IMG/VR virus record: IMGVR_UViG_3300009481_000016
Location: 1-52,772 of that record
Length of the DNA: 52,772 nucleotides
Source of the DNA: a virus
Direction: 5' to 3' (one strand)
Position 1 is the first letter of the stretch, and the number at the start of each line of letters is the position of its first letter. The notes under the pieces were generated by a model, which was given only the letters and a program-made list of their open reading frames with translations, was not told the DNA's origin and searched no databases. Positions 61 to 7,709 of the stretch are shown piece by piece. Position numbers and translations under genes: made by a program.

Positions 61-912
61 ATGAAGAAAAACATCATACTACGGGTAAGTAAATCATCAT
101 TAGGAGATTTCACCTTTTGCTCTCAACAGTATTACATTGGTCGAATTGTTGGTATGAAAGAGCCACAAAATGATAACATGTTGCGTGGAACAAATGTTCA
201 CGATTCTGTTGAAGCATTTTACAATAATATGAATGCGGAATACTTGAAAGGTTTGGATAAAGAAAAGATTGATACCTATTTCAAGAACTGTTTACCGACC
301 CCTGATGTGGAATACAACTTAGATGAAGATTTACACCTTGACCGCTATAAGGAAATAGAAGTAGATAGGTGTTTGAATTCGGAGGTTGATAATTTCCTCC
401 CCACAGGTAATGAAAAGTCAATCAACCATGTGGCTACCATTGATGTTGATGGCAAACCTGCAATGATTCACTTCATAGGAATTATTGATAGGATTTTTAC
501 TAACCCGGATGGGTCGCTTCACATCCACGAATTGAAAACAGGAATGTGGAAAAACACCCCAACTAAATTTACGAGTATGCGTAAGGAAATGGCATTTTAT
601 GTTTGGCTATTGAGTAAAGCCGAGCCTTCATCACGAATCACCCATTGGGGGTGGGACCATACGAAGGGAACGCCAGATGATGGTGGAACTGCATTTAGAT
701 TTGTCGAGCCAGTTAGAACAAAAGAGATTGGTTTAATGTTGGCTGATTTACAATCACTGGTGAGGGCGCACAGGCGTTACAAAGGTGATGGGGATGGCTC
801 AATGTTCCCTCTTTTACCACCGGGCGCACAATATCGTATTTGTGACCCGTGGTGTGGGGTGAAGGAATTTTGCCCTCGTTACCAAACACATTTGGGGGTT
901 GAAGAGGAATGA
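61..912 (+). CDS. PD-(D/E)XK nuclease, Cas4/RecB-AddB-like with Fe-S cysteines
   Basis: This is probably a DNA exonuclease acting in replication-linked end processing or recombination. Counting from the ATG at 61, His47 lies in RGTNVHDSVEAFY, Asp143 in the strand before the core, and Glu157-x-Lys159 in HELKTG, the order expected for RecB-family nucleases. A conserved-looking MAFYVWLL helix follows. Cys20 near the N-terminus and Cys261, Cys265 and Cys271 near the C-terminus match the split four-cysteine Fe-S arrangement of Cas4 and AddB. The length of 283 residues suits a single-domain Cas4-like protein. The reading frame stays open to the left edge of the window and no Shine-Dalgarno sequence precedes this ATG, so the true start may lie upstream. 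The stop overlaps the next start (ATGA). No cas genes are near, so a CRISPR role is not suggested. Confidence 0.82.
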   Translation: MKKNIILRVSKSSLGDFTFCSQQYYIGRIVGMKEPQNDNMLRGTNVHDSVEAFYNNMNAEYLKGLDKEKIDTYFKNCLPTPDVEYNLDEDLHLDRYKEIEVDRCLNSEVDNFLPTGNEKSINHVATIDVDGKPAMIHFIGIIDRIFTNPDGSLHIHELKTGMWKNTPTKFTSMRKEMAFYVWLLSKAEPSSRITHWGWDHTKGTPDDGGTAFRFVEPVRTKEIGLMLADLQSLVRAHRRYKGDGDGSMFPLLPPGAQYRICDPWCGVKEFCPRYQTHLGVEEE

Positions 913-2807
913 AATATATTAGTACATTTAGCGGTATTGAAGCCGCATCAGTAGCATGGCATCCACTGGGTTTTGAGCCTGTGGTCTTTGCTGATTTTGA
1001 CGAGTTTCCATCGGCGGTAATCGCACATCATTTTCCCGAAATACCTAATTTGGGAGATGTAACAAAGGTGAATTGGAATGAATATGAAAAGAAAGCAGAA
1101 CTTGTTGTTGGGGGAAGCCCCTGTCAGTCTTTCTCCGTTGCGGGGCAAAGACTTGGAATGGATGACCCACGTGGTAACTTGGCCTTACACTTCCTCGGAA
1201 TTGTTAGGTCAATTCAGCCTAGATGGTTCTTATTTGAGAATGTCCCGGGATTACTGTCTTCTGACGGAGGAAGGGATTTTGCAGCCTTCCTTGCGGAAGT
1301 GGAAAAATGCGGGTATGGGTTCGCCTACCGAATTCTTGACGCTCAATTCTTCGGAATCCCCCAAAGACGCCGTAGACTGTTCGTTGTCGGATGTGCTGAT
1401 GGAGATTGGCGAAGTGCCGCAGCGGTTCTTTTTGAGCAAGAAAGCCTGTGCAGGGATTCTAAGACGGGCGAAGAAACGGGAGAAAGTATTACCCCCGTTG
1501 TTGGAGATAGCGTTGAATCAGAAAGCAAACGAAGATTAGACAAAGGGATAATCCATTGTTCTGATGTTGGGCCAACTATGACGAGTTCAGGGCCACCTTA
1601 TTCAAGAACAGGGAATCAAGGCGTTGAACATGAAGCCGTAGTGGTTCAAGAAAGCGAAGAAAAACCAATTGCTTTTGACTGGCGTGAATTGAGAGGAACT
1701 AGGCCGTCAGAAGAAAATACGGACCCAGTACATACCAAAGACGGTTTGTGCGTCACACAGCCACGAATAACACCCGATAAGGCAGACACTTTAACCGCTA
1801 GTTACGGAACGAAATGGAATGGTAATGCTGCCGCCGATAGTGGTTCTTTGTTTGTAGGAGAGCCAGTACAAACCCCCCTCCACGACCCCTCTCCACCACT
1901 TGACGCCAGTTATGGAAAAGGCACAGGTGAACGGGCAGGGATTGAAAGGCAAATCGTAGCGACACCAATACACGACAAAGCCACTAGGCATCAAGGCGGT
2001 GGGCCGAAAGATGATGGTGCGACTAATATGCTTGGTATAGGTAAAGAGGAACAGTCGATGTTCACCCTTGATACCGCATGTAATCACGCTGTATTTCAAG
2101 AGTCACAAACTGGTATGGTTGAAAGTAGTTATGGTAATTATTCTGAATGTGACAAAGCAGGTGTGTTGCGAGCATCTGGTGGTCAAATGGGGGGTGGTTC
2201 TGAAACACTCGTAAGGTCAGAAACTAAGCGGGTTGGTGTTGATATTTGGAATCACAAAATAACCGGCGAAACCGCCTCCACTATGGGGTCAAATACTGGT
2301 ACTGCTATTGATAATGGCCCGATGGTTGCTGAACCAATCGGTTTCTCTCACACACAGGGATTAGACGCCCAACCATCCACTGACGCATTCCCCACACTTC
2401 GTGCCGAAGGAGGGGGTCATGCCGTGATGGAATCGGCAGGTGTTGTGTCTAAGGGTAATGGTGAGGTGTGGGAAACAAAAGAACAGCACATGAGCCTCAC
2501 CAGTGGTGGGGGTCAGGCGGGTCAGGGCTACCCTGCGGTTCGTCAATCAACAGAAACACAACACGCAGTACGCCGCCTCACACCCACTGAATGTGAACGA
2601 TTGCAGGGTTTCCCTGATGGTTGGACCCTCATACCATACAAAGGTAAGGATGCGCCCCAAACGCATCGATATAAGGCTCTAGGTAACAGTATGGCTGTGC
2701 CAGTCATGGGTTGGTTAGGCCAAAGGATTCAAGCCGTTGATACCATGCTCAATGAAATGGATGAACGGCCATCGGCCCAAGCAACAAAACAGACTTCTCT
2801 TTGGTGA
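909..2807 (+). CDS. DNA (cytosine-5) methyltransferase with long repetitive recognition region
   Basis: It transfers a methyl group from S-adenosylmethionine to cytosine C5 in DNA. Motif I is at the N-terminus (YISTFSGIEAAS). The catalytic Cys72 sits in GGSPCQSFSVAG, motif VI is FENVPG at about residues 109-114 and motif VIII is QRRRR at 152-156. Motifs IX and X come only near the C-terminus (RLTPTECERLQGFPDGW and ALGNSMAVPV). Between them lie about 390 residues, far longer than the target-recognition domain of a simple C5 enzyme. That stretch is built from degenerate units with a TLTASxG or TLRAEGGG core. Similar long variable regions occur in other phage C5 enzymes. The likely job is to protect viral DNA from host restriction. 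The gene overlaps the nuclease stop by 4 bases and is followed after 3 bases by a second methyltransferase. Confidence 0.92.
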   Translation: MKYISTFSGIEAASVAWHPLGFEPVVFADFDEFPSAVIAHHFPEIPNLGDVTKVNWNEYEKKAELVVGGSPCQSFSVAGQRLGMDDPRGNLALHFLGIVRSIQPRWFLFENVPGLLSSDGGRDFAAFLAEVEKCGYGFAYRILDAQFFGIPQRRRRLFVVGCADGDWRSAAAVLFEQESLCRDSKTGEETGESITPVVGDSVESESKRRLDKGIIHCSDVGPTMTSSGPPYSRTGNQGVEHEAVVVQESEEKPIAFDWRELRGTRPSEENTDPVHTKDGLCVTQPRITPDKADTLTASYGTKWNGNAAADSGSLFVGEPVQTPLHDPSPPLDASYGKGTGERAGIERQIVATPIHDKATRHQGGGPKDDGATNMLGIGKEEQSMFTLDTACNHAVFQESQTGMVESSYGNYSECDKAGVLRASGGQMGGGSETLVRSETKRVGVDIWNHKITGETASTMGSNTGTAIDNGPMVAEPIGFSHTQGLDAQPSTDAFPTLRAEGGGHAVMESAGVVSKGNGEVWETKEQHMSLTSGGGQAGQGYPAVRQSTETQHAVRRLTPTECERLQGFPDGWTLIPYKGKDAPQTHRYKALGNSMAVPVMGWLGQRIQAVDTMLNEMDERPSAQATKQTSLW

Positions 2808-2810
2808 TGA

Positions 2811-3944
2811 ATGATGAGAGATACAAGTAAGGATTTCACGCATAGTGAAGATGTTACCGTTCTAGTCGGTGATTGTGTTGAGAGTATGAAGGCATTACCC
2901 GATGCCAGTGTGCATTGTTGCATCACCAGCCCGCCCTATTGGGGGTTGAGGGATTATGGAACTGCATCATGGGAGGGTGGCGATACTAAATGTGAACACA
3001 CTATTTCTATGCCTAAAAAATACAATGACCCAAAAAGGGGGCAAAAGTATTCACGGCCTGAAATCGGACATAGAGGCGGTGATGCTTCGGGTTGTTTTCT
3101 ATGCGGGGCCAAGCGCACCGATTCTCAACTCGGTCTTGAATCCACCCCTGAAGAATATGTTGAAAATATGGTATTGGTGTTTCGTGAAGTAAAAAGGGTG
3201 TTGCGGGATGATGGAACTTTATGGTTAAATCTTGGTGATAGTTATATGGGTGGTGGTGGCAACTACAATAAAACAGGTATTTCACAAGCAGGTGGTCAGC
3301 ACCTTACAAATGTCAGAAATCGCAAAGATTTTATTAGAAAATCTGGCGTAAAGCCAAAAGATTTAGTTGGCATTCCGTGGCGAGTCGCCCTTGCCCTTCA
3401 AGCCGATGGTTGGTATTTGCGACAGGACATTATCTGGCACAAACCAAACCCAATGCCTGAATCGGTCACAGACCGTTGCACAAAAACCCATGAGTATATT
3501 TTTCTCTTGACTAAAAATAATAAGTATTATTATGACAATGAAGCCATCAAAGAAAAGGGTGTTATTGCAGGTGGTACAAAAGCGGCAAAAGGTAGTCAAG
3601 AACGATTTGATATGAATGGTGTTAATTCAAGGCCACCCGAATACAAAACATATAGTGGAATGAGGAATAAACGCTCGGTTTGGACCGTAACCACAAAGCC
3701 GTTTAGGGGCGCACACTTCGCTGTATTCCCGCCCGATTTGATTGAACCCTGTGTGTTGGCTGGAACATTAGCCGGTGGCACAGTGCTCGACCCCTTTGGT
3801 GGTTCCGGCACTACCGCCGCAGTAGCGTTGAAACATAACCGCAAAGCCATCTTATGTGAATTGAATGAGGAATATGCTCGCATCATGCCCAAGCGCATTG
3901 AATCCATAAGCGGGCTATCCAATACCCAACAAACATTATTTTGA
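2811..3944 (+). CDS. DNA amino-methyltransferase, SPPY (N4-cytosine or N6-adenine) type
   Basis: It methylates an exocyclic amino group in DNA. The catalytic motif TSPPYWGL is at about residues 39-46, near the N-terminus. The cofactor-binding motif DPFGGSGTT begins at about residue 327, near the C-terminus, giving the beta-type order (motif IV before motif I). SPPY is usual for N4-cytosine enzymes but is also found in adenine enzymes, so the modified base is not settled. A small Cys cluster (a Cys at about 64, then CFLC near 96-99) may bind zinc, as in many phage homologues. The length of 377 residues is normal. The start follows GGTGATGA, a good ribosome binding site, and a second in-frame ATG at 2814 is equally plausible. 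It works beside the C5 enzyme in the modification block. Confidence 0.92.
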   Translation: MMRDTSKDFTHSEDVTVLVGDCVESMKALPDASVHCCITSPPYWGLRDYGTASWEGGDTKCEHTISMPKKYNDPKRGQKYSRPEIGHRGGDASGCFLCGAKRTDSQLGLESTPEEYVENMVLVFREVKRVLRDDGTLWLNLGDSYMGGGGNYNKTGISQAGGQHLTNVRNRKDFIRKSGVKPKDLVGIPWRVALALQADGWYLRQDIIWHKPNPMPESVTDRCTKTHEYIFLLTKNNKYYYDNEAIKEKGVIAGGTKAAKGSQERFDMNGVNSRPPEYKTYSGMRNKRSVWTVTTKPFRGAHFAVFPPDLIEPCVLAGTLAGGTVLDPFGGSGTTAAVALKHNRKAILCELNEEYARIMPKRIESISGLSNTQQTLF

Positions 3945-3953
3945 GGAATTATC

Positions 3954-5018
3954 ATGGCGCATTTATTCAGACATTTCCCCCGTGAAATGGATATGAGAAA
4001 GCGCAAAGTGGTACACGATATGGATGGGTTACAACACTATGTTAAGGCCACAAATGGGGCAGACAATCTCACTACTACGGTGTATGGATTTAGAGAATTG
4101 AAACCAAACGGTCACAGGGGAGAATACTCAACTGCAATCATACCACACTTCGTCATGGATTTGGATTATGAACGGGCTTTAACTGGTGGTAAGACCGCTA
4201 AAGAGGCAGGTAATAAATGCCTTCAAGAAACCCATGCCCTTCACCAACATTTACTTTCAAACGACTGGAAACACGCCATGTTTTTTACTGGTGGTGGGGT
4301 TCATATTTGGGTCAACCTTAGCCGCACATATCACCCCGAAGGTTCGGAAATGTCAGACCTTCTAGTATCGGGTCGCCGGATGATTGACGGGTGGGTTAAA
4401 GAATGGGATTTGACAACTCTCGACCCGGTTGTTTCATTCCGACCAGACCGTCATATTCGCATTCCCAACACCTACAATTTCAAGCGGGGGTTGTGGGGTA
4501 TGCCACTTACCACAAATGACCTAGAGAATGGTTGGGATTCAATAATAAAAAAGGCGAATATACCCCATGATGGTATGGTTTTGTATGGAACTCAAGGGTT
4601 AGAACTGAACGTAATAAAGCGTAACCCCTCCAAACCATTTAGTGCCGAACCTGTTGAGGTAATCGCTGAACGAATAAACAACATCACTGTCCTACCCTGT
4701 ATCGGGGCGGCCAGTTGCGTGAAGGGCAGCAACCCCCCACACGAGGCTCGTACCTTTTTGGTGATGTTCTTACAGGATAGGTTGCGTAATTTTGCCAGAC
4801 CCCCCCGTTCATCACCAATATCACCCGACAGTATTGAAGAAACAATACATTCTTTTATCAAAAAATTAGACTGGGCTGACTACAAAGAATCAGAAACTAC
4901 CAAGTATGTAAATCATAGTGTAAACCAGTATTATCGTACCCCTTCGTGCCGCACACTTTATGAGCGTGGCTACTGTATAGGGCGTTGTTCTTTTTATGAT
5001 GGCAGTGGGGGTGCATAA
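3954..5018 (+). CDS. Archaeo-eukaryotic primase fused to a PriL-like Fe-S domain
   Basis: This probably synthesises primers for viral DNA replication. The first about 200 residues carry the AEP signature: FVMDLDYE with Asp69 and Asp71, FFTGGGVHIWV with His117, and DPVVSFRPDRHIRIPNT with Asp157 and Arg168. The C-terminal about 110 residues resemble the Fe-S domain of the archaeal/eukaryotic primase large subunit. They hold Cys249 in CI, an HEAR segment at 263-266, then TPSCRTL (Cys332), GYC (Cys341) and Cys345. In cellular archaea these two parts are separate proteins, PriS and PriL; single-chain fusions are known from archaeal mobile elements. GAGG lies a suitable distance upstream of the ATG. 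The stop runs into a hairpin that may end transcription. The catalytic half is clear; the large-subunit match is by pattern only. Confidence 0.82.
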   Translation: MAHLFRHFPREMDMRKRKVVHDMDGLQHYVKATNGADNLTTTVYGFRELKPNGHRGEYSTAIIPHFVMDLDYERALTGGKTAKEAGNKCLQETHALHQHLLSNDWKHAMFFTGGGVHIWVNLSRTYHPEGSEMSDLLVSGRRMIDGWVKEWDLTTLDPVVSFRPDRHIRIPNTYNFKRGLWGMPLTTNDLENGWDSIIKKANIPHDGMVLYGTQGLELNVIKRNPSKPFSAEPVEVIAERINNITVLPCIGAASCVKGSNPPHEARTFLVMFLQDRLRNFARPPRSSPISPDSIEETIHSFIKKLDWADYKESETTKYVNHSVNQYYRTPSCRTLYERGYCIGRCSFYDGSGGA

Positions 5019-5096: not shown

Positions 5097-5405
5097 ATGA
5101 GTGAAGATATTGAAAAAATAAGGGCTAAGAAAATAGCAGAATTGAATGAAAAAATGACAGATGTGAGTGATGATTTAGATGATATTCGTGCGCTTCAAAA
5201 TGAATTTACTTGGGCCGATTTTGGTTTTGATGAACCCGAATGGGGGTTCCGTGAAAGTCAAGATGTACCAGAAGCATTTGAGGTATGTCAACGAGGGCAA
5301 ACTGTGGCTTTAACACAAGACCCACGATGGGGTATGCTCGTTACAGATTTACTCAATCGAGCAAGACTTGAAGAATTGATTATGGGGGTGGATAAGGATG
5401 AGTGA
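5097..5405 (+). CDS. Small acidic protein of unknown function
   Basis: I do not recognise this 102-residue protein. It starts with a charged helix (EDIEKIRAKKIAELNEKM) that recalls the N-terminal helix of PDCD5-type DNA-binding proteins, but the rest does not match that family, so no assignment is made. The middle is acidic and contains an aromatic cluster (FTWADFGFDEPEWGF). The ATG at 5097 is chosen because GGTGAT lies just upstream; a TTG at 5079 is in frame but has no better signal. The stop overlaps the start of the XPF-like nuclease by 8 bases, suggesting coupled translation and perhaps a partner role. Confidence 0.7.
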   Translation: MSEDIEKIRAKKIAELNEKMTDVSDDLDDIRALQNEFTWADFGFDEPEWGFRESQDVPEAFEVCQRGQTVALTQDPRWGMLVTDLLNRARLEELIMGVDKDE

Positions 5406-6105
5406 AAAAATACTATTTATAGACAACCGAGAGCGTTCTGGTCTTGAAGAGGGTGTAAAAAAACATTCTGACAAATGCAAAATAAAATGGGAAATAAGAC
5501 AAAACATGATTACTGATTATTCATACGGCCATGTTGGTATTGAAGCGAAAAGTATTGATGATTATTTCCAATCCTTACATTCAGGTCACCTTACCCACCA
5601 GTTAGATAATATGGATGATAATTACAATCATGTTATTTTAGTCATTCATGGTAAAGTGGAGAGTTATGTTAGTAAAATGCGTAGGCGGGGTAATCGCACC
5701 CCCTTTGCTGCTATTGAAGCACAATTCATTGGCTCTTTGGCTCGATTTGATGTTGATTATGATATGACTATTATGCACTTTCCTACGGCTTCATCGGCAG
5801 CACGATGGATAGTCAAGCGGTGTGAAAAAGATGGTACATTAGGCGGGGGCAAAACCTTCCGTACTTTGCGGCGAACTACCAGTGAAGATTTACGCATAGA
5901 TGCGCTAAGGGCCATCGGTTGCAGTGAAGCAATAGCCAAGCGTTTGATTTCCCAATTCGGTTCAATAATGGAAATTGGCAGTGCTTCAATAAAGGAACTT
6001 ATGGCCCTTGAAGGGGTTGGAAAAATACGAGCACAACAAATTTCAAAGGCTCTCAATAGTGAGTCACCTGTGATAAAAGAACGAGTTAGATTAACCAACG
6101 CCTAA
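5398..6105 (+). CDS. XPF/ERCC4-family structure-specific nuclease with (HhH)2 domain
   Basis: It probably cuts branched DNA such as flaps, forks or recombination intermediates. The ERCC4 nuclease core is at residues 5-130: FIDNRER (Asp9, Arg11, Glu12), then ITDYSYG (Asp40) and EAKSIDD (Glu49, Lys51, Asp55). The last reproduces the ERKx3D motif with Arg changed to Ala. SGHLTHQLDNM is also typical. The C-terminal about 65 residues contain two helix-hairpin-helix motifs, RIDALRAIGCSEAIAKRLI and ELMALEGVGKIRAQQIS, which bind DNA in this family. At 235 residues it matches the short archaeal XPF form without a helicase domain. This family is eukaryotic and archaeal and is a main reason for suspecting an archaeal host. 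It overlaps the preceding small gene. Confidence 0.88.
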   Translation: MSEKILFIDNRERSGLEEGVKKHSDKCKIKWEIRQNMITDYSYGHVGIEAKSIDDYFQSLHSGHLTHQLDNMDDNYNHVILVIHGKVESYVSKMRRRGNRTPFAAIEAQFIGSLARFDVDYDMTIMHFPTASSAARWIVKRCEKDGTLGGGKTFRTLRRTTSEDLRIDALRAIGCSEAIAKRLISQFGSIMEIGSASIKELMALEGVGKIRAQQISKALNSESPVIKERVRLTNA

Positions 6106-6158: not shown

Positions 6159-7709
6159 ATGACACCGGCATTAAGTGATAATTTGAGTGAAATAATGAAC
6201 ACTCAACGCCAGTGGGATGATTATATGGTGGTTAATAGTAATGAACCCGGTTCAAGGTTTATTCGTGGTTATATTGAGCGTTTCAATACGGTTTCTTTCT
6301 TCAATGAATATGCTGGTTTACTTTCCTTTTTTTATGTCATGGGTCAGATTTGTGCGCCTTTTATCCGCATCCCTATACATGGAACTTTTTTGGATTGTAG
6401 GGTTCACACATTTTGGATTCAACAATCCAGAACAGGTAAATCCATTGCTTGGGAATTTACTGACCGTTTGTTAGAAGCGTTAGGTGTTGATACTGAATCT
6501 TTCACCGCTGGGTCCGATGCTAAGTTAATAGGAACTGTTGATTCACAACCAGTATTGGATGATAACGGGCGACCAACTGGTGAAATGAATCATGTTATTG
6601 TTGAAGGGCTTTTGAACGGCTACAAGACACTACTCTTCGATGAAGGCTCAATACTATTGAATGATGCCAAGTCACACTTTTCAGATAAAATACTTTACCT
6701 TCAACAAGCAATGGCCCCTCTTGGTTCTAGGACCAATGTTCTTGTTAAACACCTAGTGGGTGGAACAGTGCATACACCATCTGGTGTTTCACTTTGGATG
6801 ACATCATTCCCCCCAAAAGACATCATGGCACATGTTCTTGATAAGGGTTTTTTCCAAAGAGTTTTCTTATTTCAAAATGACATTAATGCTGAACAAAGAC
6901 AAACAGTCAGTGAACATCGTATGGGTGGTGTTTACATACCTGTTTCTGATGAAGTTATGGATTATGATGTACTCGCTGCTTATTTACAGGAATCTGTCGA
7001 TTTAGTTAAAGAGAGATTGTGGGATGCTATGGAACTAGAACCCGAAACAGTAACCATCAACACACCAGCAACAGAAGATGGTGGGGGCGGGGTCGTTGAG
7101 AGGGTCATAACTCGTGAGGAAATGTGGAATCAACTAAGTGATAGGGAACGTGAGGAAGCGGCCATGCGTCATGCTCAAGAAATTTTCACCGTTTCACCCG
7201 GTTACCATGCTGCACTACTCAATGCTACTGACGACTACTATGGTCTTGTCACTGGTATAGCGAGTGAAAATGTTAGGGAAACGGCTCTTTCTTTTGTGCC
7301 AAACATTGAGAACTATACAGTCATTTTTTCTAATTTAATTGCAGTAGTGATGCGTTCCCCTGTCATAACCGAAGAACATATAATGATGGCAACTGAAATC
7401 ATTTTTGACAACCTTCACAATCTTACCATCTGGCTTGAGCAGAAGCAAAATGTGAAGGACCGAAAGAGAATTACTGCGGAACGAGGGGCATGGATGGGCG
7501 CATTCAAACAATGTCAGAAGTTTGTTAATGAAGCAACTGGTGTTGAAACAGTCAAGCAACAGGATTTATTAGATATTTATGCTGCTCAACAATGTATTGC
7601 TAATATAACAGCCCAACGGCGGTTTTCAGCCCTTCGTAATGGGGGTCAGGTCACCATTACTAAACAGGGAAAGGGTGGCCGCAATTTTGTGTCTTTATCG
7701 TGGGGGTGA
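6159..7709 (+). CDS. P-loop ATPase, probable replicative helicase
   Basis: It probably uses ATP to unwind or load onto DNA beside the primase. The Walker A motif is QQSRTGKS at residues 88-95, with Gln in place of the usual first Gly. Walker B is LLFDEGS with Asp161 and Glu162. A later GFFQRVFLF segment may hold the arginine finger, and SLWMTSFPP may be the sensor strand. The order resembles the DUF3987-like/primase-associated helicase group, but this is not certain. The C-terminal about 150 residues are helical and may form a winged-helix DNA-binding part. It follows the XPF-like gene after 53 non-coding bases and has only a weak ribosome binding site. It could instead be another AAA-type replication ATPase. 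Confidence 0.65.
   Translation: MTPALSDNLSEIMNTQRQWDDYMVVNSNEPGSRFIRGYIERFNTVSFFNEYAGLLSFFYVMGQICAPFIRIPIHGTFLDCRVHTFWIQQSRTGKSIAWEFTDRLLEALGVDTESFTAGSDAKLIGTVDSQPVLDDNGRPTGEMNHVIVEGLLNGYKTLLFDEGSILLNDAKSHFSDKILYLQQAMAPLGSRTNVLVKHLVGGTVHTPSGVSLWMTSFPPKDIMAHVLDKGFFQRVFLFQNDINAEQRQTVSEHRMGGVYIPVSDEVMDYDVLAAYLQESVDLVKERLWDAMELEPETVTINTPATEDGGGGVVERVITREEMWNQLSDREREEAAMRHAQEIFTVSPGYHAALLNATDDYYGLVTGIASENVRETALSFVPNIENYTVIFSNLIAVVMRSPVITEEHIMMATEIIFDNLHNLTIWLEQKQNVKDRKRITAERGAWMGAFKQCQKFVNEATGVETVKQQDLLDIYAAQQCIANITAQRRFSALRNGGQVTITKQGKGGRNFVSLSWG

Follow-up and report, generated by a model that had tools for sequence, protein, structure and literature searches.

A probable single-chain primase combining a PriS-like catalytic domain and a PriL-type Fe-S-type domain in magrovirus-like marine viruses

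Introduction

In cellular primases, PriS elongates the primer and the C-terminal domain of PriL binds the first nucleotide and permits initiation (PMC5700102). The archaeal enzyme is a heterodimer in which these two domains reside on two proteins, together with a PriL N-terminal domain (PriL-NTD) and a PriS zinc motif. Whether the Fe-S domain suffices for primer initiation is still debated for the cellular enzyme.

Single-chain arrangements have been described in several settings. In the primase of Nanoarchaeum equitans, reported in 2008, one chain joins the N-terminal region of PriS and the C-terminal region of PriL (PMC2643942). PolpTN2, encoded by the Thermococcus plasmid pTN2, is a longer PriS-/PriL-like fusion with primase activity and has no PriS zinc motif (PMC3973330). 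Its PriS-like domain is fused with a PriL-like domain that has four Cys, and the protein of 922–923 aa also contains PriCT-1, both PriL domains and a winged helix but no catalytic His (PMC3973330, PMC5862659). Among haloviruses, the Druskaviridae encode HCTV-16 gp99 and HVTV-1 gp100 (PHROG 9660); GenBank calls HCTV-16 gp99 a 'DNA primase' and adds in a note that its N-terminal region is the small subunit and its C-terminal region the large subunit. The single-chain PriS/PriL arrangement is thus not new, having already been recorded in druskavirids and N. equitans.

Magroviruses are distantly akin to Druskaviridae and have Poseidoniales as hosts; their published genomes are 90–110 kb long, with opposed modules, a B-family DNA polymerase (PolB) and an archaeo-eukaryotic primase (PMC12999244, PMC10768690). 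The PolBs of haloviruses and magroviruses are related (PMC7544198). Here we analyse a gene in the IMG/VR record IMGVR_UViG_3300009481_000016, which is probably a fragment of a virus genome. The whole record of 52,772 nt is called the window, and coordinates refer to it. We propose, with a probability of about 0.9, that the virus is a magrovirus-like tailed virus of archaea and that the gene encodes its replicative primase, with an AEP domain and a PriL Fe-S-type domain joined by a flexible linker on one chain.

Results

Gene and family conservation

The first-pass annotation had described a single-chain primase of 354 residues, and the ORF list and translation of the window confirmed that its reading frame is intact and uninterrupted (Table 1). 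Each of the marine full-length copies that we read was also a single uninterrupted ORF, of 352–367 aa. A first search of viral contigs returned six homologous loci and a profile search 36; a wider profile raised the count to 76 distinct loci in IMG/VR. No relative was found in the cellular genome contigs scanned with the family. One homologue, L072 (IMGVR_UViG_2825974508_000009), lies on a contig whose name does not follow the usual form of metagenome identifiers; it may come from a single-cell or isolate genome and might thus offer a link to a host.

Residue conservation was assessed in an alignment of 40 viral primase sequences that included the druskavirid homologues. D69, D71, H117 and D157 were invariant (40/40), which bore out the catalytic AEP motifs claimed for the N-terminal half, and the four cysteines named in advance as cluster ligands (C249, C332, C341 and C345) proved to be exactly those present in all 40 sequences. 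A fifth cysteine, C255, which the first-pass annotation had not named, was invariant within the marine set but absent from the druskavirid proteins. The other residues common to all 40 sequences were R166, R169, N260, H263, R266, W307, D309 and Y327. For the gene, pN was 0.18–0.36 against a saturated pS of 0.76–0.90, which indicates strong purifying selection on the protein. The conservation signal is far beyond chance.

Table 1. Position in the window of the primase gene, its domains and motifs, and neighbouring genes.
Feature	Position (nt)	Strand	Basis or remark
PD-(D/E)XK (RecB/Cas4-like) nuclease, conserved neighbour	61..912	+	PF12705, 4.3e-15; synteny in relatives
Two DNA methyltransferases, C5 type with large insertion, then N4/N6 type	909-3944	+	Between nuclease and primase
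Single-chain AEP primase gene, 354 aa	3954..5018	+	ORF; homologues at 76 IMG/VR loci
AEP (PriS-like) catalytic domain, residues about 1-215	3954..4598	+	PriS fold match; NCBIfam PriS
Motif I, D69-x-D71 (HFVMDLD)	4158..4166	+	Invariant 40/40
Motif II, H117 (FTGGGVHIWV)	4302..4304	+	Invariant 40/40
Motif III, D157 (LDPVVSFRPDRHIRIPN)	4422..4424	+	Invariant 40/40, with R166 and R169
Variable linker, about residues 216-240	4599..4673	+	Relatives differ in its length by up to 19 residues
PriL C-terminal Fe-S-type domain, residues about 245-350	4686..5003	+	PF04104; NCBIfam PriL; PriL-CTD/PriX structure match
C249, first predicted cluster ligand	4698..4700	+	Invariant 40/40
C255, extra Cys	4716..4718	+	34/40, marine set only; V in druskavirids
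N260-P-x-H263-x-x-R266, predicted initiating-nucleotide site	4731..4751	+	Invariant 40/40; position comparable to PriL Arg
C332, second predicted ligand	4947..4949	+	Invariant 40/40
C341, third predicted ligand	4974..4976	+	Invariant 40/40
C345, fourth predicted ligand	4986..4988	+	Invariant 40/40; low local model confidence
ERCC4-type nuclease with helix-hairpin-helix, conserved neighbour	5398..6105	+	PF02732, 1.3e-16; synteny in relatives
516-aa protein	6159-7709	+	No Pfam match; P-loop-like QQSRTGKS, Walker-B-like TLLFDEG

N-terminal AEP half

The N-terminal half resembled PriS in both sequence and predicted fold. Scanned member by member, NCBIfam PriS models matched 18 of the 40 family members (best E 5.5e-5). 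The whole-protein AlphaFold2 model (pLDDT 78.9) gave Pyrococcus horikoshii PriS 1v33 as its top VIA match (Z 13.7, rmsd 3.5, 186 aligned positions, model residues 2–204), and model residues 2–214 fitted archaeal and human PriS with Z of about 13. The DxD, H and D catalytic residues, together with the AEP catalytic fold, place this half in the AEP superfamily. It contains a single Cys (C89) and hence no PriS zinc-binding motif; the same absence in PolpTN2 indicates that the motif does not define the superfamily. We class this half as a PriS-like AEP and not as cellular PriS.

Other AEP enzymes also appeared in these searches. LigD polymerase domains and a CRISPR-associated PrimPol were among the Foldseek matches, the profile's weak PDB sequence match was again a CRISPR-associated PrimPol, and nuclease genes lie close by, as might be expected if the protein served repair or defence, as a primase-polymerase of the NHEJ or CRISPR-associated PrimPol type, and were not the viral replicative primase. 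We consider that identity very improbable, given that VIA ranked PriS first, that PriL Fe-S domains typically belong to initiating primases, and that the gene sits with PolB, clamp-loader and nuclease genes in relatives and with PCNA in a druskavirid.

Linker and C-terminal half

The two halves are separated by a linker in which residues 227–236 had pLDDT below 50 in the whole-protein model. Beyond it, the primase has only a domain of ~105 aa, and no PriL-NTD was found in the protein. NCBIfam PriL models matched 14 of the 40 members (best E 1e-6), the window protein itself only weakly (E 0.037, residues 231–274). Pfam PF04104 (PriL) matched 14 of 28 members (best 1.1e-5), and in a close relative, L009, the match exceeded the curated cut-off over residues 247–347 with all four Cys inside. 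Searched alone as a single sequence, the window protein had no match in Pfam, PDB or the phage collection, so that its homology was recognized through profiles and through other members of the family.

Since VIA, run on the whole model, listed matches to the AEP half only, the C-terminal domain was predicted and searched by itself (pLDDT 82.6, pTM 0.77, with pLDDT below 50 in the C345 region). The top four VIA matches were the C-terminal domain of Xenopus PriL (PriL-CTD; Z 6.0), Sulfolobus solfataricus PriX (twice, Z up to 5.9) and the yeast PriL-CTD (p58C; Z 5.0); the next-best chain, an unrelated one, had Z 3.5, and all others were at or below that value. Foldseek E-values for the C-domain matches were above 0.1. 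Modest as Z values of 5–6 are, they concur with the sequence families, and the two together make the PriL assignment secure. A zinc-finger family, which had been named in advance as the competing identity for this part of the protein, offered no competitor, its best match being to one member at E 0.48. The earlier reading of a single chain with PriS-like and PriL-like parts is thus supported.

The spacing of the four cysteines was 82-8-3 in the marine primase and 65-8-8 in druskavirids. The corresponding values are 81-8-44 in Gerdarchaeota ePriL, as derived from C252, C334, C343 and C388 (PMC12770985), and 80-16-39 in yeast PriL, as derived from published residue numbers (PMC2852410). That the last interval is short agrees with the description of archaeal PriL as largely devoid of the small C-terminal subdomain (PMC2852410). 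Judged from sequence, the four predicted ligands would bind a 4Fe-4S cluster. H263 follows the first Cys, C249, by 14 residues and R266 follows it by 17; in yeast PriL, R355, which is essential for initiation (PMC5700102), lies 19 residues past C336. By position, R266 may correspond to yeast R355.

PriX being among the best structural matches, and the last Cys (C345) being poorly modelled, we also considered that the C-domain might be a PriCT/PriX-like helical initiation domain with zinc-binding or structural cysteines, in which case the protein would be a general mobile-element PrimPol and no PriS-PriL fusion. PriCT, PriX and the PriL Fe-S domain are, moreover, thought to be related (PMC5862659). 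Sequence profiles, however, name PriL and not PriCT in many members, and the first two cysteine intervals match those of a cellular PriL. PriX replaces the Fe-S domain without needing a cluster (PMC5700102), so that a set of four invariant cysteines points to PriL. We regard the PriCT/PriX-like identity as highly unlikely and retain the PriL Fe-S-type assignment.

Separate primase subunits

The window and nine related contigs were searched for separate primase subunits. In these ten records the fused gene was the sole match to PF04104, and PF01896 had no match, so that no separate PriS was detected. As the contigs are possibly incomplete, the absence of separate PriS and PriL is suggestive only; a separate PriL-NTD may have diverged too far to be detected or may be missing from incomplete contigs.

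PriL-NTD holds PriS and PriL together in cells, and its lack here raises the question of whether the protein is a partial primase that needs a host or viral PriL-NTD partner; several neighbouring genes, such as that for the 516-aa protein, have no assigned function. However, a covalent tether links the two modules in every full-length homologue, so that no bridging subunit is needed, and a paper title in the reference list of PMC12770985 calls the N. equitans enzyme monomeric. A need for such a partner therefore appears unlikely to us, although less so than either of the two other identities considered above, and we favour a single chain that would be sufficient by itself for primer synthesis.

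Gene neighbourhood and virus

Up to about 8.7 kb, the window is a plus-strand replication and repair block that encodes, in order, the PD-(D/E)XK nuclease, the C5 and N4/N6 DNA methyltransferases, the primase, a small ORF, the ERCC4 nuclease and the 516-aa protein. PolB was present in six of the nine related contigs; one relative, L002, has a clamp-loader gene and a weak clamp-like match, both upstream of PolB. In a druskavirid, the primase homologue adjoins PCNA. A search for MCM in the ten records found none. The 516-aa protein is a candidate replicative helicase. It was 55–71% identical in 5/5 relatives checked. The AAA protein of HCTV-16 was considered as its counterpart, and the comparison gave no match. 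By best BLAST match, L002 has the first methyltransferase only, L003 and L018 the second only, and L020 and L004 neither; this patchy presence among relatives gives the pair the look of a swapping cassette.

Most of the window to the right of ~8.7 kb is a minus-strand tailed-virus module with genes for an SU10-like major capsid protein, an S78 protease, a portal and a terminase. Among 50,697 phage records, the capsid protein matched archaeal viruses only (eight druskavirid and three methanogen-associated). Related contigs reach 93–108 kb. Opposed modules, PolB in relatives, the length of the related contigs and a capsid protein nearest to those of druskavirids agree with what has been published on magroviruses. 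The virus is probably a marine tailed virus of archaea; it looks magrovirus-like and may belong to the Magrovirales. The primase also supports an archaeal host for the contig, as the first-pass annotation had hinted. That annotation contrasted the fused protein with the two proteins of cellular archaea, to which N. equitans is a published exception (PMC2643942).

Comparison with known single-chain primases

The druskavirid proteins share the domain order, catalytic residues and four Cys of the marine primase, and HVTV-1 gp100 (L039:2162-3310, minus strand) aligned end to end with the marine family (E 3.5e-10). They differ in their length of 382–383 aa, their cysteine spacing and their lack of C255, and identity is about 23%. 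The N. equitans enzyme, likened here by its published description, follows the same plan of a PriS N-terminal and a PriL C-terminal region but is cellular. The window protein is of this N. equitans/druskavirid type, with an AEP domain and a PriL-CTD on one chain and no PriL-NTD.

The AEP regions of PolpTN2 and the marine primase matched by profile with a probability of 91.7%; when the PriL half was compared with the single PolpTN2 sequence, the cysteines were not convincingly aligned. The layout of the PolpTN2 family is not that of the window protein, which has 354 aa versus 922 and no PriCT-1, full PriL or winged helix past the AEP domain. These precedents (HCTV-16 gp99, N. equitans and PolpTN2) make the marine set a known kind of enzyme. 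The addition to them is the marine set, which is abundant and very compact and has neither PriL-NTD nor the PriS zinc motif.

Discussion

The domain assignments allow us to outline how the protein would most likely work. In the AEP domain, D69, D71 and D157 would bind the template and the incoming nucleotide. The Fe-S-type domain tethered to it would carry a cluster on C249, C332, C341 and C345 and, around H263 and R266, hold the first nucleotide, the one at the 5' terminus. By offering this nucleotide to the AEP site intramolecularly, it would allow a dinucleotide to form; the short primer would then be extended and presumably handed to the viral PolB.

It is conceivable, although on balance doubtful, that the magrovirus and druskavirus primases are minimal, self-sufficient enzymes from a common viral ancestor that never had a PriL-NTD. 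Their coupling of initiation to elongation would then be separate from, or earlier than, that of the cellular heterodimer.

With at least 76 loci, compact single-chain primases of the archaeal type occur widely among marine viruses and reach beyond one nanoarchaeon and a few haloviruses. At 352–367 residues, these proteins are small enough to serve as models in which to ask if initiation needs no more than a tethered Fe-S domain.

Annotation of the druskavirid primase is uneven. It carries its name in HVTV-2 and HCTV-16, is still a 'hypothetical protein' in HVTV-1, HCTV-1 and HCTV-5, and has a function-less label in PHROG 9660. In BFVD, the model m4f3a6b1bbee3 had near full-length matches of 312–348 aa in other viruses, among them the DNA primase of Salinibacter phage M8CC-19 and, from an uncultured archaeal virus, a protein labelled 'DNA primase large subunit'. 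As far as predicted structures can indicate, compact primase fusions may extend to bacterial phages.
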